Positions 1 to 17,491 of a DNA stretch of 20,179 nt are shown piece by piece (position 1 is the stretch's first letter; each line of letters begins with the position of its first letter). The stretch is from the IMG/VR virus record IMGVR_UViG_3300047309_000007, positions 1 through 20,179 of that record; one strand, given 5' to 3'. The translations under genes and the position numbers were made by a program. This DNA is from a virus. A model generated the notes under the pieces. The model ran no database searches. It had not been told where the DNA came from and saw only the letters and a list, made by a program, of their open reading frames with translations.

Positions 1-1211
1 TCCCAGTACGGCTTCTCGGCTTCTGTTTTGGCCGGGGGTTCAGGAATTTCGCCAAATGCGTACTCAAACGGGGTCAGTTTGGCTTTGCGTGCTTCTTCAG
101 CGGTCTTGGCCAGTTCAGCCTGCACCAACGGGCGCAGTTTGTTGTATTCCTTGGCATCTGCGTCCAACGACTCTTTGAGTGCGTTTTGCGCAGTTTTACG
201 CTCTTTGTAAATTTCCCACTCGTCAGGGGTTGCCTCGTTGCCCGGACGCTTGAGTTCTTTTAGGTCGGCTTTGTACTGGGCTTTGCGGGCTTCAAAATCT
301 TTTACAAACTCGGCGGCGTATCCGGGTTCTGCCTTGCGGGCTTCTTCAGCCGCACGAGCGGCTTCTTCCTCGGCACGGGCTTTACTTACTTCGTCTTGTG
401 TAGTGGCACGTTTGGCACGACGACCCAGCGCCAAGTCCAATAGCCCTTGGGCCAACGCACCCACAGCGCCGCCGTAAGCGGCAGACTCGCCAACCTGTTC
501 AATAATCTCTTGCTCTGGTTTGTAAATGCCCTTGGCAATCAAGTTCTGGGCGGCTTGGCTGGCGGCTTCTTGTGCGGCTTCTTCCCCACCCGCAATTGCT
601 ATGCGTTTGAGGCTTGCGGCAACACCTTGCTTAATAGGCTCATCAATTCGCCCCAGTATGCGGGCAGGGGCAAACATCTCGGATAGGCCAACAATTGAAC
701 CTAAAGCAGTGGCAGCTCCTCGTTGTTCTGCGGTAGCGCCTTCTTGTTCTGCCCGAGTGCGGGCTTCGCCAGCACCCATACCGGCACCCAGTCCGGCCAT
801 GCCAATACGCCCAGCCGCGCCCAAAGGCCCAAGCCCTAAGAACGGAAGAATTGAACCAGCGGCTTCACCAAACTTGCGGCCAACAGTTTCTTCGTAGCCG
901 GGGGTTGCGGCAAAAGGTTCTTTGGCGGCTTTGGCTATGCTGGCAATGCCTTCTCGGGCACTTTTCTCGTACTGTTCTGGGAGTAACGCTGACGCGCCAA
1001 CAGCCGCTGACTCAAGCGCTCCAATACCGCCGGGTAAAACGCCCTTGAAAAACTCGCCTACTTGCCCACCGATCGTGGGTTCTTTTTTGGGTTGCGCAGA
1101 CTGAAACGCGTCGGGATACATTTGCATGGCACGCGCATACGTTTGCTCAGGCGTTTCACCTTCACGGATTGTCACGTAGCGACCGTCTGGTAGGGGCAGT
1201 GCAAGAGGCAT
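1..1211 (-). CDS. Large internal/ejection protein, C-terminus beyond left edge
   Basis: An open frame runs to the left edge, 403 codons from the ATG at 1211 (MPLALPLPDGRYVTIREGE). The N-terminal part contains TPEQTYARAMQMYPDAF and GGQVGEFFKGVLPGGIGALE. Gly/Ala-rich hydrophobic segments follow (SILPFLGLGPLGAAGRIGMA, VGLSEMFAPARILG, YGGAVGALAQGLLDLALG), then long Glu/Lys/Ala coiled coils (KARAEEEAARAAEEARKAE). This pattern fits a very large phage internal protein, possibly with enzyme domains further downstream that are not visible. The start is uncertain: the ATG lies 77 bases after the previous stop, unlike the tight junctions elsewhere, and the frame is open back to that stop through TTG and GTG. 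A +/-1 shift near 1246-1249 would link an ATG at 1279 to this frame. Confidence 0.75.
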   Translation of the reverse strand, partial: MPLALPLPDGRYVTIREGETPEQTYARAMQMYPDAFQSAQPKKEPTIGGQVGEFFKGVLPGGIGALESAAVGASALLPEQYEKSAREGIASIAKAAKEPFAATPGYEETVGRKFGEAAGSILPFLGLGPLGAAGRIGMAGLGAGMGAGEARTRAEQEGATAEQRGAATALGSIVGLSEMFAPARILGRIDEPIKQGVAASLKRIAIAGGEEAAQEAASQAAQNLIAKGIYKPEQEIIEQVGESAAYGGAVGALAQGLLDLALGRRAKRATTQDEVSKARAEEEAARAAEEARKAEPGYAAEFVKDFEARKAQYKADLKELKRPGNEATPDEWEIYKERKTAQNALKESLDADAKEYNKLRPLVQAELAKTAEEARKAKLTPFEYAFGEIPEPPAKTEAEKPYW

Positions 1212-1288
1212 TTCAGTTCCAAATTGTGCGGCTGGTTTCAACACACCCCAGCGGGCCGATCCGTCTGGGGCATGGCCATATTATGCGC
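1212..1288 (-). other. Short region with unresolved start of the leftmost gene
   Basis: These 77 bases are the largest apparent gap in the operon. They contain ATG codons at 1279 and 1273 in a frame that stops after 13 codons, and an in-frame open path without ATG for the leftmost gene. The G run at 1246-1249 (coding strand GGGG) is the natural place for an indel. No promoter or hairpin is evident. Confidence 0.5.
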
Positions 1289-4561: not shown

Positions 4562-5011
4562 TTAACCCTCGTAAAAATACGTTTCGCCAGCCTTGATGTA
4601 GCCAGCGCGTTTGAGAATGGAGGAAAGATTGTTGCCCTCTTGGTGACTGACAACAACTTGATCAACGCCTTGAGAACGCAAGGTGGTTCCGGCAAAACGA
4701 AGCAATTTACACATGCCTAAAGACCCTCTGAACTCCGGCAAAATGTAATAGAAAATGTCCATGGCTATCAGTTTTCCGTAAAACGGATTACGGTACACCA
4801 TGAAACCTACGTGCCCCGCTAGTTTACCCTCTGGATCACGCAAGGTAAAGTACGCTACGCCCCCGTTTTGCTCAGACAGCACAACGGCTGGAAAGTCACA
4901 GCAATATCCATTACTGGTGCCGTAAAGTTCCTTCCAGTGCATACCTGACAACACGGCAATATCGGCCGTGTTGTTGACAAACAGTTCTTGGGCGCAGGTC
5001 AAGTCGCTCAT
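4562..5011 (-). CDS. GNAT-family N-acetyltransferase (second copy)
   Basis: A 149-residue GNAT-like protein. Strands (YFTLRDPEGKLAGHVGFMVY) lead to motif A at residues 84-103 (MDIFYYILPEFRGSLGMCKL, R95-G96), followed by VDQVVVSHQEGNNLSSILKR and the AGYIKAGETYFYEG end. As in the first copy, the canonical Gly after RxS is replaced (RGSLGM). The two proteins share the (V/I)(V/L)P(D/E)FRG core but otherwise differ, and in particular the second has four Cys residues. It overlaps the preceding gene by four bases and ends three bases before the next start. Activity is likely but the acceptor is unknown. Confidence 0.76.
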   Translation of the reverse strand: MSDLTCAQELFVNNTADIAVLSGMHWKELYGTSNGYCCDFPAVVLSEQNGGVAYFTLRDPEGKLAGHVGFMVYRNPFYGKLIAMDIFYYILPEFRGSLGMCKLLRFAGTTLRSQGVDQVVVSHQEGNNLSSILKRAGYIKAGETYFYEG

Positions 5012-6052: not shown

Positions 6053-6487
6053 TTATGGCTCCTTTGAACAGTTAAACCCAGTTGTTTTAAAACCAAGTTT
6101 TTCGTAGAAATTTCGCACGCGATCCATGTCCCCAATGCCAGTTGACTGACCGATGTTTATGTAATCAACTTTTTGTTTTTGCGCCCATGCGTCGTACATT
6201 TTCATCAAGCGAACAGCGATAGGCGTGCCTCTAAAATCCGGCACAACATACAGCAGTAAGTCCGCAGAAAACTTGGCGTGAAACATGGGGTGATTGTAGG
6301 TGTAGCCCATAAAAATAGCCACTGGTCTGTCTTCACTGTACACCACAACGGTAAGCGATCCGGGGCTTGCCACCGTGCGTTTAAGGCCATCAACATTGAT
6401 AGGCCGATCATAAATACTTTCGTTAACAAAAGCCGTCAACAACAACTGAATGTCGTCAAAGTTATGCTGTTCGGTCTTATAGATCAT
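6053..6487 (-). CDS. GNAT-family N-acetyltransferase (first copy)
   Basis: A 144-residue protein with the GNAT order: N-terminal helices (FDDIQLLLTAFVNESIYD), strands LTVVVYSEDRPVAIFMGYTY, then motif A (DLLLYVVPDFRGTPIAVRL, R86-G87) that would hold acetyl-CoA, and the C-terminal FYEKLGFKTTGF (motif B). In motif A the classical third-position Gly (RxxGxG/A) is Pro, giving RGTPIA, a variant common in phage GNATs as I recall. The acceptor cannot be deduced. It overlaps the upstream tail gene by four bases and precedes the Ala/Gly-rich protein by one base, so modification of a virion or host protein during assembly or entry is possible but unproven. Confidence 0.8.
   Translation of the reverse strand: MIYKTEQHNFDDIQLLLTAFVNESIYDRPINVDGLKRTVASPGSLTVVVYSEDRPVAIFMGYTYNHPMFHAKFSADLLLYVVPDFRGTPIAVRLMKMYDAWAQKQKVDYINIGQSTGIGDMDRVRNFYEKLGFKTTGFNCSKEP
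6059..6064 (-). promoter_or_regulatory. Ribosome binding site deciding the start at 6051
   Basis: AAGGAG lies seven bases before the ATG at 6051, inside the last codons of the first GNAT gene. A longer in-frame reading from 6135 would overlap the GNAT gene by 83 bases, so this site supports the shorter protein beginning MCGGGGFFGG. Confidence 0.65.
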
Positions 6488-7125
6488 GCGGGCAGGGCTG
6501 AGACAAACGAAAGTGTAGCCACCACCGAGGGGATGGACGGCATTGCAAACGGAGATGTCTGCGCGGGATAGGCTTCCAAGTAGACTGATGTGTTGGCCAC
6601 CGCCGCATACAACTCTACAAAGTCGCCAGCGTTGAGTCTGACGTAAAAATTACAAGCGGCAATCAAATAGCCATCACTGCCTGCATGTTTACTCGGGACA
6701 TCAAATTTGCTACCAGTGCCGTCTAAATCGACCCCGTTGACGCGAAGCCAAATATACGCCGTCTGCACCCCAGCATTTGTGTTGGCAAACTGAGCACTAA
6801 ATTGGTAATTATATATTCCTGCCTGTTGAACATGAATGCCGTCCGTACCATCATTGGTACAGCCGCTCAAGTAATCATTTTGTTCAAACGTGATCTGCGT
6901 GGGGGTGTTTAGGGAAAAAGTCAGATCAGTGTTGCGTTGTATGGCGGCATACGGGAATTGCAAATACTGCCCACCACGATCCCCCAAGACCAACCCATAT
7001 GAGTTTTTCAATTGGTTGAAATACAGGCGCAATACGTTGGAGTACTGATCTTGATACCGGCGTTCGTACTGCTCCGGCCCCAAGGGCAAGTTGGGTGGTA
7101 CTGGGTTGTTTACGCGAGTAGCCAT
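6484..7125 (-). CDS. Tail protein with C1q/TNF-like jelly-roll domain
   Basis: A 213-residue protein. Residues 1-45 (PVPPNLPLGPEQYERRYQDQ, then NVLRLYFNQLKNSYG) form a Pro-rich helical anchor. Residues 60-200 look like a ten-strand jelly roll: VQQAGIYNYQFSAQFANTNA, TAYIWLRVNGVDLDGT, YLIAACNFYVRLNAGDFVEL and VATLSFVSALPA are the strand pattern of C1q/TNF-type trimers used as phage fibre or tail-tip heads. A trimeric tail tip or fibre head attached by the N-terminal helix is the likely role, next to the nozzle gene with which it shares a start/stop base. No catalytic motif is seen. Fold assignment is by pattern. Confidence 0.72.
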   Translation of the reverse strand: MATRVNNPVPPNLPLGPEQYERRYQDQYSNVLRLYFNQLKNSYGLVLGDRGGQYLQFPYAAIQRNTDLTFSLNTPTQITFEQNDYLSGCTNDGTDGIHVQQAGIYNYQFSAQFANTNAGVQTAYIWLRVNGVDLDGTGSKFDVPSKHAGSDGYLIAACNFYVRLNAGDFVELYAAVANTSVYLEAYPAQTSPFAMPSIPSVVATLSFVSALPA

Positions 7126-9233
7126 TACCGGCGACCATCCGGGCGAATGTCAATACGAGGCGCACCCAACTGCCAAGTGGTGTTGATTTGCCCAGAACTG
7201 ATCTTGAAAATCATCTGTCGACCGCGCAACCGTGTGTAAATCTGACCAGTAAATTCCTCGGTGATGTAGTACGTGCTGGCTTTGCGCACTGGCTGTGAGG
7301 CATCGCTGGTCACACCTGAACCCGAGTTTGTAAGCCCGTACAACTCCATTGTCACTCTGGGTTGGTCGCCTGTGTTGGGGTCAACCGAAGAACTCTCAAA
7401 AGTCAAATCGGGCAGTATGCGCCACACGAATCCAAAATTGTGCCCGTCTTGGATGTCAAATTCAGACGAGGATATGGAGGCGCTGATAGCCGTAGTTGTG
7501 CCTGTTTCGTTGTCATTGATGCCGTTTTCATGGTCAACAATGTTGTAACTGTAGGTAGCCGCTTGCGGATAGGGGCGCAGACCAGAGTCAGACCAAGCCG
7601 TTCGTGCCATCGTGCCGTAGTACCACACCTTCTCCATGTAGTTGTAGATGACATACCTGTCAACTGTATTGCTGTTGGCTGAACAATAGAACCACCAAAC
7701 TTCGTTAAAGCCTTCGTTGGTGCCCGCAAAAATCTGTTGTCTTTGTCCTTGATTCAAGTCAGAGAACACATACCGACGCAAGTCACAATTGAGTGTCTGC
7801 ACCCGACCATCGTAGGCATAGAACTTGTCAACACCCATCCAATACACCACACCAGAGGCAATGATGGCGGCGTTCTGACCTTGAATAGAGATATTGTCAC
7901 CAAGCAACTGTGGAACCCACGCTTGCGTCGGGTTGCCGCTAAACTGAAGCGAATACACAGATGCGTCTGTAATGACAACAATTTCTTGACGTGCCTGCAC
8001 CGCAGTCACAATCTCAGACCCGTGCGATAAGCGGACATACCCCGCTAAATTTGTGGCGTCTTCAGTCCAGTTGTACGGATCGTCTTTGTTTGACCAACGA
8101 ATCAACATGGGGTCAATGGTGCTGGACTCGTACGGGTTGGTTCCAAAAGTAAGGATGAACCGATAGGTGTCAGAAATCATAATAAAGTTCTGCGCCACCG
8201 GAATATCTTCGGGTGTTATGGACTGCGTACCAGACTGGGTGCCAGATGTGTTGACAATGTTGCCAGATGAGTCCAGCAAATTGAACGTCAAACCATTTAC
8301 GTTATACGCATAGTAGGTTGTGCCTGCCGTGATACCTGTTGGCAAAGCACCTGTAGTGCTAAACGATATAGCCGCACCCTCAGTATAGAGGATGGTGGAT
8401 GTGACCACCGCAGGCGAAGCAATTGTGATTGTGCAAGTGCCGCCAAGTGAGCGCAAATTGACTCCGCGTGTGGTCACGTCATTTGTCGCATCCCAATAGT
8501 AGATGCCACCCCCGCGAGGGCCAAAAATCAAGTCCTCGCCATAGTTCATCTGGCTCCAAAGACGAATGCTTGCGTAAGTTGTGGTGCCTACACCCCAAGT
8601 GCCAGTCCCCCACGTACCGCCGCCCCAACCCGTATATGGCACAGCATACGACGGACCAACGTTGATCTGATATGCGGCAACAACCGAGGCACCGCCGCCG
8701 GGGGATGCGGCAATGGCCGTGGCGTTGGGGGTAACAGAGAGTTGAATTGTGTAGGTGTTGGCGTTAATAACCGTGACTTGGAACTCTTGGTTGAGCACAG
8801 CCGCCGTCACGTTTGTCCCACCACCGCCAATGGCAACGGCACCGCTAAAAGTAACAAAGTCCCCAGTCACACAACCGTGCGCTGTATCCGTCACCGTACA
8901 AGTGGTCGAAGCCGTCAGTGCAAAAGGGTTGTTATTAATTGTGGTCGTGGAACGAATTGGCGTGATGTCGTAGTACGCGGCCCCTTTTTCAATATAGAAC
9001 TTGAGGTTTGTACCAACACCCAAAAGGTTTTGAAAACTCAGCGTAATCCAGTTCCACAGGGAACGACAGACACCTTGGTACGTGTTAGCAGATATGCGTT
9101 GCCAGCCACCGATAACTTCTGGGTTGCCTTGACGGAAACGAATTTTGTCGCACTCATACCACCCGCCCTCAGTGGTATATCGTGTGTTTTCCCGGTTAAC
9201 CCCCGGTTTGAACAGTATTTTTTGTAATGGCAT
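7125..9233 (-). CDS. Tail nozzle / DNA stabilisation protein, P22 gp10-like
   Basis: A 702-residue protein starting MPLQKILFKPGVNRENTRYT, then GGWYECDKIRFRQGNPEVIG, which I recognise as the conserved beginning of podovirus stabilisation (nozzle) proteins. Propeller-like beta repeats follow, with YGEDLIFGPRGGGIYYWD, SDTYRFILTFGTNPYES, YWMGVDKFYAYDGRVQTL and EVWWFYCSANSNTVDRYVIY. Two inserted beta domains are apparent at about residues 103-193 and 265-340, of a type often added to tail proteins. Residues 202-215 carry a GGGTWGTGTWGVG motif. In P22, gp10 sits below the adaptor gp4 and plugs the channel. Unusually, the lysis genes lie between adaptors and this gene. It shares one base (TAATG) with the next gene. 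Confidence 0.82.
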   Translation of the reverse strand: MPLQKILFKPGVNRENTRYTTEGGWYECDKIRFRQGNPEVIGGWQRISANTYQGVCRSLWNWITLSFQNLLGVGTNLKFYIEKGAAYYDITPIRSTTTINNNPFALTASTTCTVTDTAHGCVTGDFVTFSGAVAIGGGGTNVTAAVLNQEFQVTVINANTYTIQLSVTPNATAIAASPGGGASVVAAYQINVGPSYAVPYTGWGGGTWGTGTWGVGTTTYASIRLWSQMNYGEDLIFGPRGGGIYYWDATNDVTTRGVNLRSLGGTCTITIASPAVVTSTILYTEGAAISFSTTGALPTGITAGTTYYAYNVNGLTFNLLDSSGNIVNTSGTQSGTQSITPEDIPVAQNFIMISDTYRFILTFGTNPYESSTIDPMLIRWSNKDDPYNWTEDATNLAGYVRLSHGSEIVTAVQARQEIVVITDASVYSLQFSGNPTQAWVPQLLGDNISIQGQNAAIIASGVVYWMGVDKFYAYDGRVQTLNCDLRRYVFSDLNQGQRQQIFAGTNEGFNEVWWFYCSANSNTVDRYVIYNYMEKVWYYGTMARTAWSDSGLRPYPQAATYSYNIVDHENGINDNETGTTTAISASISSSEFDIQDGHNFGFVWRILPDLTFESSSVDPNTGDQPRVTMELYGLTNSGSGVTSDASQPVRKASTYYITEEFTGQIYTRLRGRQMIFKISSGQINTTWQLGAPRIDIRPDGRR

Positions 9234-11120: not shown

Positions 11121-13061
11121 TCAGAACATCATCAAGAAATTAGCACTTGTTACTGGTGTATAGGTAATGATGATTGCGCCTTGTGCGGCATTTGGGCCAG
11201 TTTGGTTTGCAAGAGTTGAGCCAGCACCGCCACCTGGGAATCCTCCCGCACCACCAACTCCTGTGTTTGCACAACCCCCACCACCACTACCACTACCAAT
11301 TCCAATCACAATGTCGTAACCAGTTGAGCCTGCGCCTGCATCACTTGCTGAACCAGCCCCTGCGCCTGGTGCGCCCCCACCACCAACAGCACCTCCACCA
11401 TTTACACCCGAACTCGTATCTGTTGTAGCACCGCCAACACCAGCATTATTATTACCACCATCGGCTTCTGTTCCACTGGCAGCAACCGCATTTCCACCAG
11501 CAGTTCCACCACCATTTCCTCCACCAGCACCAGCCCTAACTTGGTTAGATGGGCCTGTACCACTAACACCATTACCACCTTTTGCACCAACTCCAAGAGG
11601 CCCACCAGCACCGCCACCACCATCTCCACCACCCCAAGAAGCACTTGTTGTTGTACTTCCTCCAGCACCTCCGTTGTAAGTGCTTCCTGTGCCTCCAGAA
11701 CCACCAGCACCAGTTGTGGCATTACCACCCCCGCCACCTCCAGCAGTTGAAGCACCAGAATTCCAAGATGTTGTGCCGCCCGCTACACCATTCGTGTTTT
11801 GTGGGCTTGTTGTTCCAGCAGAACCGCATTGATATGTAATAGCACCACTTATAACTTGATTTGTGAGTTTTGTGTATCCACCACCACCACCAGCACCGCC
11901 AGCAATACCAGTAGTAACTCGACCAGCCGCACCACCACCACCACCAATCAAGTGAATGGTGTTGCTAGATGGATTCCAGTCTGATGGAACAGTCCAAGTT
12001 GTTGACGATGTGCTAGTTAAAACAATAACCGCAGTTGTTGCCCTCTGTGACCCATATAAACCATAACCACTATTTGGTGCGGTTGTTACATAAGTTGAGT
12101 TTGCGCCTATGTACCATGTATCAGAAACAGGAGAGCCAACAATATCCCTTACAGACAAATAATCAATACCTGTCAAATAACCTGTTCCTGTGTATGTAAG
12201 CGTTCTTGCTGTTCCATTGGTATCACTAGTCAAAGAAACCACATTACCGCTTGTACCTGTAATAGACCACGCACCAACAGACTGATTTCCTCCAAATGCA
12301 ATTGTGTGTGCAACTGTTTTTGTGCTGGCTAATTCGCTAAATGTGTTTGCGCCAGTGATAGTAAGAGTTGATGTTCCTGTTGCACCACCAATGGTTAATT
12401 TGTTGTAAGTAAGAGTTCTGCCAGCAAATGTTCTTGCTGTAGTTGTGGTGTTGCTTAACAGTATATTTGCTGTGTTTTTGTTAAAAGTTAAACCAACACT
12501 TCCAGTTCCGAAATTCCAAACAGTTCCTGTTCCTGTCAAAGTCCACAAGCCAGAACCCATAGTAACTGTTCTGGTGTTAGTGTTTGATGACGAAAAAATA
12601 CTCGCAGTAAAGTTGAAATTGTTAGCGTCAAATGTTCCAGCGGTCAGCGTAACAGTCCCGCTTGAAGTAAAAGCATCTCCAAGTGTTGAGGTAATACCTG
12701 CGCCATTAACTGTTACTGACGAAAATGTTTTGCCAGCAGATGTGATTGTGCCTGTGCCAGTAATTGTTATTGTTCCTGTATAGGAATATGTCATTCCAGC
12801 AACAAGAGTCACGCCACCCGCAACAGTAATAGCGGCAGTCCCTGCCAATGTTCCTGTGTATCCAGTGCAAGTTATGGATTTTGCACCTGTGTTTCCAGTT
12901 GAAATCGTTACTGTGCTAGCCCCAGAACTACCATCAAAGAACACATCGTCAGCAGTTGTGGGTATGGCTTGCCCTCCAGCACCGCCAGAAGTCAAAGCCC
13001 ATTTAGTGCCAGCAGTACCGTCCCAAGCGGCAGTTCCACCAACCCAATAACGATTTGCCAT
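11121..13061 (-). CDS. Large tail fibre / adhesin with glycine-rich tip
   Basis: A 646-residue protein. The N-terminus (ANRYWVGGTAAWDGTAGTKW, then PTTADDVFFDG) matches a family of repetitive phage and bacterial surface proteins. Residues 45-300 are Thr/Ser/Gly-rich short beta repeats (TITITGTGTITSAGKTF), likely a beta-helix shaft. Residues 353-371 (STTWTVPSDWNPSSNTIHL) introduce a very glycine-rich domain (372-635, with GGGGG runs) like the glycine-rich tips that bind receptors in some phage adhesins; the protein ends ITYTPVTSANFLMMF. Its codons look richer in A/T than those of flanking genes, consistent with separate acquisition. Role is probably host binding. The shaft fold is inferred from composition. 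Confidence 0.82.
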   Translation of the reverse strand: MANRYWVGGTAAWDGTAGTKWALTSGGAGGQAIPTTADDVFFDGSSGASTVTISTGNTGAKSITCTGYTGTLAGTAAITVAGGVTLVAGMTYSYTGTITITGTGTITSAGKTFSSVTVNGAGITSTLGDAFTSSGTVTLTAGTFDANNFNFTASIFSSSNTNTRTVTMGSGLWTLTGTGTVWNFGTGSVGLTFNKNTANILLSNTTTTARTFAGRTLTYNKLTIGGATGTSTLTITGANTFSELASTKTVAHTIAFGGNQSVGAWSITGTSGNVVSLTSDTNGTARTLTYTGTGYLTGIDYLSVRDIVGSPVSDTWYIGANSTYVTTAPNSGYGLYGSQRATTAVIVLTSTSSTTWTVPSDWNPSSNTIHLIGGGGGAAGRVTTGIAGGAGGGGGYTKLTNQVISGAITYQCGSAGTTSPQNTNGVAGGTTSWNSGASTAGGGGGGNATTGAGGSGGTGSTYNGGAGGSTTTSASWGGGDGGGGAGGPLGVGAKGGNGVSGTGPSNQVRAGAGGGNGGGTAGGNAVAASGTEADGGNNNAGVGGATTDTSSGVNGGGAVGGGGAPGAGAGSASDAGAGSTGYDIVIGIGSGSGGGGCANTGVGGAGGFPGGGAGSTLANQTGPNAAQGAIIITYTPVTSANFLMMF

Positions 13062-13259: not shown

Positions 13260-14678
13260 TCATGCTTGAGTGGTAAGAGCAACAACATCCCAACGATCTG
13301 CGTTTGCGTTGTAGATGCATCCAAAATAGGTCAACTTGCTCACAGTTGTTGCAAAGGTAAAGTCTGAACCGCTTGCAGTTAGGTTTGTTCCGATGGGTCT
13401 AAATCCACCAGAAACGCCACCAGTAAATGTGATGGTTCTGGATGTGCCATTATCCAGAATCCTAAAAATCATCTTGTCTCCATCGGTTGGAGTGCCAGTG
13501 ACAGCATTGATCGTCAAAGCCGATGCCAATGCGGTATAGGCATATTGGTCAGCGGTTGCAATTGATGGGGTTAAAGAAGATGCAGTAGTTGTGCTTGTGA
13601 CTCTAGGATCAATACGCTTATTAGTCAGAGTTGCAGTTCCATCAATGGTTGCAAAACCACCCGTGGCGTTTGCGTTATTGCCAAGTGCCGTGACTACGCC
13701 CGTGCCAGTGGTTGTTGAGGAAATTGCCGTACCCGAACCACCACCCAACAAAATTGCACTTGATGCCAAGGTTCCAGACTGCGTTACTAAACCACCAGAA
13801 GTATTTACAGAATTTCCAACAGCAGTGACTACGCCCGTACCAGTGGTCGTTGTAGCAGGTGCGGCTCCAGCACCACCACCCAGCACAATAGCGTTTGCGG
13901 TAAGGGCGGCAGAAGTTGCCCAAGTCGATGCGCTGGAGAAATAAGGAATGCCGCCAGAAGTTCCAGCAATTGTGAATGCAGGCGTAGTAGTTCCGTTGGC
14001 AACAGAAACAATACCGCCAGTCCAACTCACTGATGTAACAGTGCCACCAGAGCCGGTTGCGGCAATGCTAATTGATCCGCCACCGTTAGTAATTGAAACG
14101 CCAGAACCAGCGGTCAGTGTGGCTTTGGTCAGCGTGTTACCCGTTGAGTTACCAATCAGCAATTGACCATCGGTGTAGGTGCTTTGTCCCGTTCCGCCGT
14201 TGGCAACGGCCACAGTTCCAGTAATGCTGGAAGCAGGCACTACTGTCGAGGCTACTTTGACAAAATCAGAACCGTTCCACACCACAACGGCCTTTTCGCC
14301 AGACACCAAAGTCACGCCAGTAGTGGGTCCAACGCCCACAACGGCCACAGATTGACTGGTCGATGTGGCATTTATGACGATGTAATTGCGGCTGGACGCA
14401 GGGACCGTGACCGTTAAAGTGCTGGCTGGATTCCCTGTGCAGTTGATGACTGCGTACTGGGCAGAGCCTGTAGCACCAGACCCGGCCTGAGAAAGCGCCG
14501 ATCCGTTTGTGGTCGATAGCGTTACAGCCGTCTGGCTTCCGCTGATGGTCTGGGTTCCTTCAACAGCGGCATCAATATACTGCGTGATGTAGTCGTTAAC
14601 GGTGGTGCCCCACTGACCGGCCAATTCCCCCGTGACCGGCAAAGCCAGCCCAAGAAGTGATGTGTACGCTGTCGTCAT
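13260..14678 (-). CDS. Tail fibre protein
   Basis: A 472-residue protein. The N-terminus (YTSLLGLALPVTGELAGQWG, then VNDYITQYIDAAV) matches the start common to many phage tail fibres, where it is thought to anchor to the virion. Residues 80-145 form a beta domain with ASSRNYIVINATS and EKAVVVWNGSDF. From residue 151 the shaft is Gly/Thr/Ser-rich, with the collagen-like fibre signature NGGTGQSTYTDGQLLIGN. Two 45-residue shaft repeats span 266-355, followed by TLTNKRIDPR. The C-terminal domain (residues 375-472) has DKMIFRILDNGTSRTITF and ends YNANADRWDVVALTTQA. It follows a TAGGAG ribosome site. Likely role is host recognition, alone or with the neighbouring fibres. Confidence 0.88.
   Translation of the reverse strand: MTTAYTSLLGLALPVTGELAGQWGTTVNDYITQYIDAAVEGTQTISGSQTAVTLSTTNGSALSQAGSGATGSAQYAVINCTGNPASTLTVTVPASSRNYIVINATSTSQSVAVVGVGPTTGVTLVSGEKAVVVWNGSDFVKVASTVVPASSITGTVAVANGGTGQSTYTDGQLLIGNSTGNTLTKATLTAGSGVSITNGGGSISIAATGSGGTVTSVSWTGGIVSVANGTTTPAFTIAGTSGGIPYFSSASTWATSAALTANAIVLGGGAGAAPATTTTGTGVVTAVGNSVNTSGGLVTQSGTLASSAILLGGGSGTAISSTTTGTGVVTALGNNANATGGFATIDGTATLTNKRIDPRVTSTTTASSLTPSIATADQYAYTALASALTINAVTGTPTDGDKMIFRILDNGTSRTITFTGGVSGGFRPIGTNLTASGSDFTFATTVSKLTYFGCIYNANADRWDVVALTTQA
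13614..13883 (-). repeat. Two 45-residue direct repeats in tail-fibre shaft
   Basis: Residues 266-310 and 311-355 align without gaps. Both begin LGGG, contain TTTGTGVVTA(V/L)GN and end before or at the next shaft element. At the DNA level a near-identical tract of about 25 bases recurs 135 bases apart (from 13690 and 13825), so the duplication is fairly recent. Confidence 0.75.
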
Positions 14679-14687
14679 TTATGACTC

Positions 14688-15776
14688 CTAATTTGTGTTG
14701 ATCTTGGTCCACTGCGGCGTTTGCGCAGTGTCGACGTCGGTCCAACCAAGCGGGTTTGTTGTGTCGACGGGTTGCCATGTTGAGCCAGATGCGGTGTCGA
14801 CACTTTGCCAGCCAGCACTTTGCACGTTGGTTATATTCTGCCAGTTTGCGTTCTGGCTGTCATCAATTAACTCCCAGTACAACTGCTGGAAAGTGGCATC
14901 CAACGCTGTTGCTGTCTCCAAAATTGAAGAAACAAAAGCCGCCGCCGCACTGGTTACATCTGACGCATTGACGGCATCCACCACGGAAACATTAAATGTC
15001 TGTCTGGCAAAAACCAAATCCGACAAAGATGCCGACTCCTCAACAGAAGTCTCAAAATACAGAACGCCAGAAATTGAGTCCGCGCCAACCGCAGACTCCT
15101 CAATAACACCAATAAAAGTAAACGCCGATGCTGTTTCATCCGCACCAGACGCTGTCTCGTCAACGCTGGCTGGCAGTGTGAGCAGGGCAGAAATCTCATC
15201 TGCACCAGCCGCCGCCTCGTCTACTGCAACACCGTAAGTTGGGGTCGAACTAATTGCGTCTGCACCCGAAGCAGTTTCAGCAATATAAGAATAAGGTTTA
15301 AATCTTGCATCAATACTGTCTGCCCCAGACGCAGTCTCCGCAACAGCCGCGTAATATGCCAGCAAGGAACTGACAACATCGGCACCGGAGGCCACCTCGT
15401 CAACTGCAACGGCAAACGTAACGGCAGAAGAAACAGTATCGGAACCAACAGCGGCTTCGGATATGGCCGCAAGCGCCTCAAGCCCTGCCGCTATAACATC
15501 GACACCAGAGGCTGTCTCAACAATTGCGGAGTCATAAAGTAACGCACCGCTGATGCTGTCTGCCGCACTTGATGTTTCAGAAACATCGGCGGGCAACGTC
15601 AAAAACGACGATATTACATCGGAGCCTGTGGCCGTTTCAGAAACGGAAGACGCAATAGACAGCGTCCCATCAACGCTGTCCGACCCGGTTGCAGTTTCAG
15701 CCGCATCACGATCATAGACTGAGTCACCCCAGCCTGCCTGACCCCATGTGCCTGAACCCCAACCGCCTTCGGCCAT
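14688..15776 (-). CDS. Repeat-built tail fibre/adhesin-like protein (14 x 20 aa plus 5 x 11 aa)
   Basis: A 362-residue, acidic, Ala/Ser-rich protein made almost entirely of repeats. Residues 1-26 are Trp/Gly-rich (GGWGSGTWGQAGWGDS). Residues 27-306 are fourteen contiguous units of exactly 20 residues, consensus E-T-A-S-G-A-D-x-I-S followed by about ten variable hydrophobic positions. Residues 311-362 hold five units of an 11-residue repeat with Trp at position 2 (GWQSVDTASGS, TWQPVDTTNPL, GWTDVDTAQTP); the last is truncated to 8. No indel interrupts either series. Such regularity indicates an elongated repeat fold. Its place between structural genes and a collar-type fibre suggests a virion fibre or receptor-contacting protein. 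No catalytic motif is seen. Function is inferred from architecture and context. Confidence 0.78.
   Translation of the reverse strand: MAEGGWGSGTWGQAGWGDSVYDRDAAETATGSDSVDGTLSIASSVSETATGSDVISSFLTLPADVSETSSAADSISGALLYDSAIVETASGVDVIAAGLEALAAISEAAVGSDTVSSAVTFAVAVDEVASGADVVSSLLAYYAAVAETASGADSIDARFKPYSYIAETASGADAISSTPTYGVAVDEAAAGADEISALLTLPASVDETASGADETASAFTFIGVIEESAVGADSISGVLYFETSVEESASLSDLVFARQTFNVSVVDAVNASDVTSAAAAFVSSILETATALDATFQQLYWELIDDSQNANWQNITNVQSAGWQSVDTASGSTWQPVDTTNPLGWTDVDTAQTPQWTKINTN
14691..14846 (-). repeat. 33-bp coding repeats (11-residue Trp units) at C-terminus
   Basis: Residues 311-362 contain Trp at a strict 11-residue spacing in five units, most with a W-x-x-(V/I)-(D/T/N) core. 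They form a separate terminal domain after the 20-residue array. Confidence 0.8.
14859..15698 (-). repeat. Fourteen tandem 60-bp coding repeats (20-residue units)
   Basis: Counting residues 27-306 of the repeat protein gives fourteen successive units of exactly 20 amino acids, each starting with Glu (one Asp) and carrying a conserved Asp at position 7, often as GAD or GSD. DNA identity between units is modest, so the repeats are old or under diversifying change rather than fresh copies. Confidence 0.85.
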
Positions 15777-15785
15777 GGCTCATCC

Positions 15786-16364
15786 TTAAGCCGACAGGCT
15801 GAATGTGTAAGTCACCGACAAAATATCGCCGCTCACAACCGAACGATCACCGGGGGACTGGAAGTCAGCCGCCGAGAACAGCGTGCCAGTAGACCCGCCT
15901 TTGGTGTTATTGCTGGTCAAGAACGCACCGCCAACAGTAGTCGAGCCGCTCATGGTGAACGTGGCTTTGCTGGCAGTATTGGTTACAACAGATGGATTGG
16001 CGTTGGTGGCGGCGGCAAAGGTAGCCGCAGGGCGGGTAGACTCACTATAAGCAGTGACTTCAGTCCAACCGCCATGAGTGCCCATTGTGTCGCCCGCAGA
16101 CGGGTTGTTGGAAGATGCGGCTCCGTACAGGCCCAAGTACCAACTGGTGATTTGCGAAGTGCTGGTCAACGCAGAACCTGCCATGTATTGCAAGCCCACA
16201 TTGACGACCAAGTTGGGAGTCTCGGCTACCCACTTTAGGTTGCCATCTTTGTCATGGCACTCCACAACATATCTGCCAGTGGCACGAGCGCCTTCAGAAG
16301 CGCCTGTGTTTGCAATCAGACCACCAGAAACTTGGTCTTTTGCTTTGAGTTTTTCCGTGGTCAT
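15786..16364 (-). CDS. Beta-rich phage structural protein
   Basis: A 192-residue protein. A charged N-terminus (MTTEKLKAKDQVSGGLIA) leads to RYVVECHDKDGNLKWVAE and then NLVVNVGLQYMAG. The remainder is a Ser/Thr/Gly-rich beta domain with SWYLGLYGAASS, ATFTMSGSTTVGGAFLTS and a final VSGDILSVTYTFSLSA. The central motif is one I associate with structural genes of aquatic podoviruses, unnamed in function. It follows a strong TAAGGAG site and ends in TAAGGA ahead of the repeat protein, so it is embedded in the fibre block. It may be a capsid decoration or fibre-base protein; which of these cannot be told from sequence alone. Possible distant paralogue of the preceding gene. Confidence 0.75.
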   Translation of the reverse strand: MTTEKLKAKDQVSGGLIANTGASEGARATGRYVVECHDKDGNLKWVAETPNLVVNVGLQYMAGSALTSTSQITSWYLGLYGAASSNNPSAGDTMGTHGGWTEVTAYSESTRPAATFAAATNANPSVVTNTASKATFTMSGSTTVGGAFLTSNNTKGGSTGTLFSAADFQSPGDRSVVSGDILSVTYTFSLSA

Positions 16365-16369
16365 GGTTA

Positions 16370-16375
16370 CTCCTT
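16370..16375 (-). promoter_or_regulatory. Ribosome binding site overlapping upstream stop
   Basis: The TAA of the preceding gene runs into AAGGAG, five bases before the ATG at 16364. It fixes that start and again shows the stop/Shine-Dalgarno fusion used at several junctions here. Confidence 0.65.
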
Positions 16376-16796
16376 ATACAAGTCGAATCAGCGCAGAACT
16401 GCTTGTGTTTGAAGGCATCTGCACTGTGAAAGTGGTGGCTGAAGTTTTGTCAGAACCAAAGTCCAGCACACAAACAGCACCGTTAGCACCGGGCGTGTAG
16501 ATCAACGCACCACGGGCTGTGATTGCGCCGGTCCACGCAGGGGACGAAAAATTGACATACACCGTGCTACCTGTGTTGGTGTTTTCGCTCGATACTGTGG
16601 CAGTAACGACCTGCCCCCCGGCAACGTAGTCGCCACCAGAGGCTTCGCCCACTGTTGTGTACTCGGTCGTGGTGTAGTCCAACGTAGCGGTGTTGTTGTA
16701 CAGCGCCAAATAAAACGTGTCCGTGGCAAAGTTGATCGTGCCGTTGGCCAGACCAGATCGCAAGGTGTTGCAGGAGTAGTTGCCTGTAAAGGCCAT
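16374..16796 (-). CDS. Small beta-rich phage virion protein (probable surface/decoration type)
   Basis: The ATG at 16796 is preferred; it shares one base with the upstream TGA and gives 140 residues (AFTGNYSCNTLRSGLANG after the Met). A GTG at 16799 would add one residue. The protein is rich in Thr, Ser, Gly and Tyr and looks like a beta sandwich, with FYLALYNNTATLDYTTTEYT, GGDYVAGGQVV and SPAWTGAITARGALIY. No enzyme motif is present. It resembles small structural proteins found beside adaptors in aquatic phages, from memory. The next gene shows a similar order of motifs (YLGLY, a Gly-Ala turn, a DF motif), hinting at duplication. Precise position in the virion is unknown. Confidence 0.72.
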   Translation of the reverse strand: MAFTGNYSCNTLRSGLANGTINFATDTFYLALYNNTATLDYTTTEYTTVGEASGGDYVAGGQVVTATVSSENTNTGSTVYVNFSSPAWTGAITARGALIYTPGANGAVCVLDFGSDKTSATTFTVQMPSNTSSSALIRLV

Positions 16797-17491
16797 CACT
16801 GGACTCCGTTATTCTGGGGCAAAGGCGAAACACGCGCTTGCCCACTGCGGTACGCATCACTGCGCTCCAGCCCGTCGCCCAGACGTTTAGCCAACTGCAA
16901 GGCTTCCATGTACTTCTGGTTGTACAACGACATCATGTCGTTCTCACCTTTCATGTAGGTGTAAGCCTCAACCAACGAACCATAAAATAGCACGGTGTCA
17001 AAGTTATCACCCAACCATGTGCGACCATCAGCGGCCACAGTTATTGACTCGGGATAGTAATAATAGTGCAGTTCGATCCCGTACGAGGCATCCGGTGTAG
17101 GGCCAAGGATGATGCTCAGTTCATCGGAAATTGTGGAGCCACTTACATACGGACCAAACAGCGCATAGTATTTGGGGATGCCTGTATCGGATGTTGGGTT
17201 GGGATACGCTTGGCGAATGAAGTTGACATCTTTATTGAGCAAGTATTCGTAGTTGCCAGACCCGTCAATAACTGCGACAGAGTATGCCGCTAAAAAATCG
17301 CTGGGTGCTTGCAGATACTTGTTGCCCAAAGAAGTTGTCCCCGTCACGTTTTTACGCAATGACGGGAACTGGACTGAGTTGTAAATGCGCTGTTCCGCCT
17401 GTGTGACAAACACAGGTATCTCGTCCACGAAGTTTTGCTCAGTGTTCTCCGTGTACGCCTGAATAGCGGCAACCAACTCAGTGTAGGTCAT
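16796..17491 (-). CDS. Phage adaptor protein (SU10 / P22 gp4 type)
   Basis: A 231-residue protein with the usual layout of short-tailed phage adaptors that sit between portal and nozzle. Residues 1-40 are helical (YTELVAAIQAYTEN, then VFVTQAEQRIYNSVQFPSL). The middle is beta-rich with the LQAPSDFLA motif and a IILGPTPD turn (residues 127-134) followed by ELHYYYYP. Residues 155-205 are C-terminal helices (AADGRTWLGDNFDTVLFYGS, then NQKYMEALQLAKR). The AEQRIY, LPSDF-like and GPTPD features are what I associate with the SU10 adaptor family. It overlaps the upstream gene by four bases and ends in TGATG, shared with the next gene. Family call is fairly secure; the structure is not confirmed. Confidence 0.82.
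   Translation of the reverse strand: MTYTELVAAIQAYTENTEQNFVDEIPVFVTQAEQRIYNSVQFPSLRKNVTGTTSLGNKYLQAPSDFLAAYSVAVIDGSGNYEYLLNKDVNFIRQAYPNPTSDTGIPKYYALFGPYVSGSTISDELSIILGPTPDASYGIELHYYYYPESITVAADGRTWLGDNFDTVLFYGSLVEAYTYMKGENDMMSLYNQKYMEALQLAKRLGDGLERSDAYRSGQARVSPLPQNNGVQ

Follow-up and report, generated by a model that had tools for sequence, protein, structure and literature searches.

A viral protein of exact 20-residue repeats, with a Trp-Gly head and an 11-residue Trp tail, as a candidate component of the tail-fibre apparatus

The window analysed here, 20,179 nucleotides of DNA from an uncultured aquatic phage, encodes a 362-residue repeat protein that is real, selected and modular, and that is most likely part of the tail-fibre apparatus. 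We propose, with moderate confidence, that this protein is a stiff shaft or spacer, built by stacking beta units of two strands each and bearing a Trp-Gly (WG) head and a docking module of Trp repeats; the length of the shaft would be set by the number of its units.

The repeat gene and its surroundings

The features on which our argument draws are as follows:

15776-14688, minus strand: repeat-protein gene, 362 aa, from the ORF list
15699..15776, minus strand: N-terminal head, residues 1-26, read from the sequence; holds the Trp-Gly element GGWGSGTWGQAGWG (residues 4-17)
14859..15698, minus strand: 14 units of 20 aa, residues 27-306, from the sequence, homologue segmentation, AlphaFold2 and couplings
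14691..14876, minus strand: residues 301-362, the C-terminal module in which Trp recurs at 11-residue intervals, from profile alignment and a tail scan
13260..14678, minus strand: the next gene downstream, 472 aa and tail-fibre-like, with a match to PHROG 31660 tail fiber protein (E 2e-16)
15786..16364, minus strand: upstream neighbour, matching phrog_8123 (function not assigned in PHROGs)
16374..16799, minus strand: phrog_644 gene, a tail-module neighbour, also found upstream of the 22-residue family described below
16796..17491, minus strand: SU10-type adaptor (connector) protein (Pfam SU10_adaptor, E 2.5e-24)
7125..9233, minus strand: hub, a virion 'stabilization/constituent' protein (phrog_3287), with a WG element near residue 203
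11121..13061, minus strand: Gly-rich adhesin-like protein, whose domain 71-323 is elsewhere fused to 20-residue repeats and a Trp tail

A preliminary description had placed the repeats at 14691-15698, and this is indeed where they lie; but the plus strand of that span is full of stops, and the whole gene, on the minus strand, begins beyond it at 15776; the WG head at residues 4-17 had also been overlooked. The 14 units are contiguous over residues 27-306 with no indel, exactly as described. D7 is found in 14 of 14 units, E1 in 13 and A3 in 12, and the self-identity of the protein is 0.36, 0.36 and 0.41 at lags of 20, 40 and 60 residues, against a highest value of 0.198 at any lag in 2000 shuffles. 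The low DNA identity claimed for the units was also right: their mean pairwise identity is 47% in DNA and 34% in protein, which marks the copies as old. Units 13 and 14 are the most degenerate of the array, and the protein is rich in Ala, Ser, Thr and Gly. The Trp residues of the tail keep the exact 11-residue spacing reported for them and number six (301, 312, 323, 334, 345 and 356), the first falling inside unit 14.

The neighbours of the gene are fibre and tail genes, and the window has virion structural genes and fibre genes, an endolysin and a putative holin. Across the 80 loci of our first scan, the nearest upstream homologue of a window gene was the 15786 (phrog_8123) gene in all 80, and the nearest downstream one was the fibre gene in 74; these fibre-type neighbours support the original suggestion of a fibre. 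Several relatives carry an extra ORF between the repeat gene and the fibre gene, and we saw no clear relationship between unit number and downstream ORF length (rho -0.15, p 0.08, in a set that includes some non-fibre ORFs). In L010, L013, L016 and L018 the repeat gene is followed by an ORF (about 263 aa) that, judged by eye, resembles a GIY-YIG homing endonuclease. Elsewhere in the window, two acetyltransferase-like genes (phrog_1249; 4562-5011 and 6053-6487, minus strand) lie within the structural region, and an edge-cut ORF (3-1244, minus strand) is weakly similar to very large phage proteins, one of them labelled virion RNA polymerase; a giant ejected protein may begin with it.

Unit length, unit number and selection among homologues

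Three scans of IMG/VR viral contigs gave 289, 400 and 236 confirmed stretches with relatives of the window protein, so homologues of its gene are present in at least 289 viral stretches; it matched nothing in cultured-phage records, and a scan of bacterial genomes found no relatives. We extracted 143 distinct homologous proteins, all from uncultured viruses, and segmented the complete ones. Of 1617 unit-to-unit steps, 1560 are exactly 20 residues, and a further 51, all in one clade, are of 38 residues, being one unit plus an 18-residue WG element; the other six comprise four steps of 40 (consistent with one unit scoring below threshold), one of 58 and one of 39. In that clade (L036/L080) the WG element stands between units 5 and 6, or after unit 9 or 10 in the longer members, and leaves the unit length undisturbed. 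Some steps in distant fused relatives are 41 or 62 residues instead of 40 or 60, owing to a few 21-residue units, which suggests that the exact length belongs to the close family and is not a law. The expectation that homologues would not break the unit length is thus upheld strictly by the close ones, but not by the clade with the 18-residue insert or by these distant relatives.

Copy number varies by whole units, as had been anticipated: we counted 10, 11, 12, 13, 14, 15, 18 and 19, although a missed unit makes some of the counts of 12 and 13 too low. In L182 and L179, two nearly identical phages, the arrays are one whole unit apart, their other units being essentially the same DNA. Units from different phages are 55% identical at the same position and 42% at different positions, so the array is handed down with its units in order. 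Tails of homologues hold 1, 2, 3 or 5 Trp repeats, judged by length, and wherever the spacing was printed it is exactly 11.

The repeat protein is under purifying selection, with a median dN/dS of about 0.22 over 417 homologue pairs of 75-99% DNA identity. Within the unit, pN is 0.062 at positions 1-7 and 0.156 at positions 8-20 while pS is nearly equal (0.384 and 0.390), so the second half does change faster, as predicted. The division into a conserved polar half and a variable hydrophobic half is borne out to that extent, but an alternation between odd and even positions (pN 0.077 and 0.170) is clearer, and fits better what is expected for beta strands; the constrained face would be E1, A3, G5, D7, V/I9, F/Y15 and V/I19.

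The Trp module and the WG element in other phage proteins

No family in Pfam, NCBIfam or PHROGs covers the 20- or 22-residue proteins, and in the same libraries the repeats match no annotated tail or fibre family; searches with the protein and its homologues gave nothing real. Hits to NAD_binding_2 (E 0.004) and HopJ (E 0.06) fell below the cut-offs of those families and were rejected. A match to designed helical repeat proteins in a sequence-profile search of the PDB (E 4e-7) was set aside as composition plus 20-residue periodicity, because the prediction is all-beta and the unit positions include Gly and Pro. We likewise rejected the structural protein of Roseovarius podovirus RPP1, with its period of 22, collagen-like parts and unrelated consensus. 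Literature searches for the consensus string and for virion proteomics of relatives found none. The 20- and 22-residue proteins are without a family in the libraries searched; repeat-built fibre shafts are already a known kind.

What the window protein shares with other proteins is its C-terminal Trp every 11 residues. Profiles of the 20-residue family and of a 22-residue family (in which 600 of the unit steps are exactly 22) align only over the Trp tail, in 46 columns (probability 97.4, E 9e-12), and when the tail alone served as the query, it turned up after shafts with periods of 18, 20 (in two consensus types), 22 and 23 residues. Judged from these sequences, the Trp tail is the constant part, and the repeat units differ among proteins. 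In seven proteins (L306, L308, L343, L310, L301, L304 and L297; blastp E down to 2e-24) the repeats come after a domain homologous to residues 71-323 of the adhesin-like protein 11121-13061, and in L309 they come after a Gly-rich domain that matches phrog_863, tail fiber assembly (E 1e-4). Several of the fused relatives begin with the adhesin-like domain and end with the constant module; many phage fibres have the opposite order. A 23-residue shaft with the same Trp tail matches phrog_8501, a minor tail protein (E 4e-16), which in L326 has its repeats before that tail but differs from the window protein in unit sequence and length. L326 (484-1779) has two shaft types within one protein, with about ten 23-residue units (LSPARYDNAQVFYSPTVTAGAVT) ahead of 22-residue ones and the Trp tail last.

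The WG element, too, is shared. In the head, W6, W11 and W16 are invariant in homologue sets A1 and A2; related elements sit inside the array in one clade, and the hub protein (7125-9233) carries GWGxGxWGxxxWG near residue 203, like the head of the repeat protein. The element is found in 16 of 20 hub homologues and in 10 of 679 other long ORFs, which suggests an interaction element common to the repeat protein and the hub.

Among known phages, gp68 of the cultured Pelagibacter phages HTVC023P and HTVC027P, annotated as hypothetical, resembles the window protein in having a repeat shaft and a Trp-rich C terminus, and in both it is directly followed by a 'putative tail protein' (gp69 in HTVC023P) whose N terminus resembles that of the window fibre. 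The HTVC023P gp68 differs in its 22-residue units, its consensus and its lack of a WG head; that of HTVC027P is irregular, with WG elements inside. In HTVC023P about 10 kb separates the pair from the phrog_644 homologue, so block synteny does not account for the pairing with a fibre gene. The WJZ48131 protein of the metagenome-assembled phage DSL-LC04 (PMC10611076) has the same gene position, WG elements and a homologous Trp tail, but 22-residue units (VTGVQATGxVGTVTV...) and several WG elements; of 80 IMG/VR relatives of this protein, most have the phrog_644 gene upstream as well, and in over half, where the contig extends, a fibre gene with the same N terminus follows downstream. PhiCh1 gp34, a tail fibre with many short repeats and an invertible segment, gave a weak tblastn match to L001 (E 3e-4) that may be compositional; its dominant period is 10 residues, of other composition, and it has neither Trp tail nor WG head. 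The repeats of the window protein are not of the gp34 type, and by eye we found no second repeat-protein gene in the window, such as an invertible fibre locus would suggest.

Predicted fold, rival readings and proposed role

AlphaFold2 with a 57-sequence alignment predicts a pair of strands for almost all units; pLDDT is 70-83 through most of the span 30-260 and under 50 in the head and in the tail. From the single sequence it was uninformative (pLDDT 36). Turns in the model are short (2-3 residues), with one predicted at 16-18. Coupling analysis on three-unit windows (Neff about 254) gave a strong fold-back centre at residue 14, about 2-3 residues off that turn, a weak one at residue 4, and couplings in register from i to i+20, a signal that can also arise from unit duplication. 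Foldseek found no significant structural match in the PDB (best E 0.37), the weak matches being mostly parallel beta-helices; against BFVD the best E was 1.2e-3 with low TM-scores, and the matches of best probability were uncharacterised proteins from uncultured phages. On these models, a two-strand solenoid rung of 20 residues per unit is most likely. The same fibre-shaft role could be served if each unit were instead folded as a beta hairpin, the hairpins forming a single long antiparallel sheet or, in a trimer, three of them; the length per unit would then be about twice that of a solenoid. We regard this as rather unlikely, if to be kept in mind: the short turns, and couplings (12-16, 9-19, 8-20 and 7-1) that involve both faces and are hairpin-like, speak for it, and the i to i+20 couplings and the parallel beta-helices among the weak PDB matches speak against it, neither of them decisively. 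A largely disordered, low-complexity linker, whose periodicity merely reflects unit duplication, would accord with the Ala-, Ser-, Thr- and Gly-rich composition and the poor single-sequence model; this is very improbable given that the 20-residue length is kept over 1560 steps despite sequence divergence, that constraint alternates strongly by unit position, and that the alignment-based model is ordered in the repeats. Disorder throughout, which would have told against the fibre suggestion, is not what AlphaFold2 predicts for the repeat region.

Two further readings place the protein outside the fibre. It could be a capsid decoration, or another virion protein unrelated to fibres, that merely lies within the late gene block; the upstream genes (15786-16799) are without assigned function, and the KPP25 match to the 15786 protein falls at the junction of a 'head closure Hc3' gene and the next, hypothetical one, within a block of structural genes. 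That the repeat gene in HTVC023P keeps its fibre-gene partner although the other genes of the block lie elsewhere, and that the Trp tail occurs on minor-tail and tail-fibre-type proteins, makes this unlikely. A secreted curli-like or other adhesive polymer, made in the infected cell and no part of the virion, seems to us a very distant prospect. The curli subunit CsgA is built of two-strand units of about 20 residues, similar in size to the 20-22-residue units here; but Pfam curlin has no match at E 1 in the window protein or at E 0.1 in L001, the consensus is one of Glu, Asp and Gly without a Gln/Asn ladder, no hydrophobic signal peptide is visible at the N terminus, and no secretion genes were recognised among the window ORFs. 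Curli genes are nevertheless present in related phages, curli modules being known in those of the HTVC023P type (PMC9599517).

Returning to the tail-fibre shaft, we infer a beta-solenoid topology, a location in the virion and a function of length as a spacer. Several results tell against this reading: no significant fold match in the PDB or BFVD, pLDDT that is no more than moderate, the offset between coupling centre and predicted turn, unit numbers that do not follow downstream ORF length, and the domain order of several fused relatives, which is the reverse of that in many phage fibres. The repeats would stack into a rod, one 20-residue rung per unit, and with beta-sheet spacing of about 0.48 nm per rung the 14 units of such a solenoid would measure about 7 nm. 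Unit number would set the length of the shaft, which may evolve as whole 60-bp units are added or dropped, and the WG head and the Trp module may dock it to other components of the tail, roles that we assign speculatively, from how the elements are distributed among sequences. Phage fibres are known to be modular. A broader and more tentative proposal is that one constant Trp module bears interchangeable solenoid shafts (18-, 20-, 22- and 23-residue units) whose length changes rung by rung, the WG element shared with the tail hub forming a docking code, and that this arrangement is widespread in aquatic phages.

With one family spanning 10 to 19 steps of equal length, natural alleles could test whether shaft length tunes infection. 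The signature of WG head, repeat shaft and 11-residue Trp tail offers a way to recognise genes that are at present annotated as hypothetical in phages of fresh and sea water, among them the SAR11 phages HTVC023P and HTVC027P.
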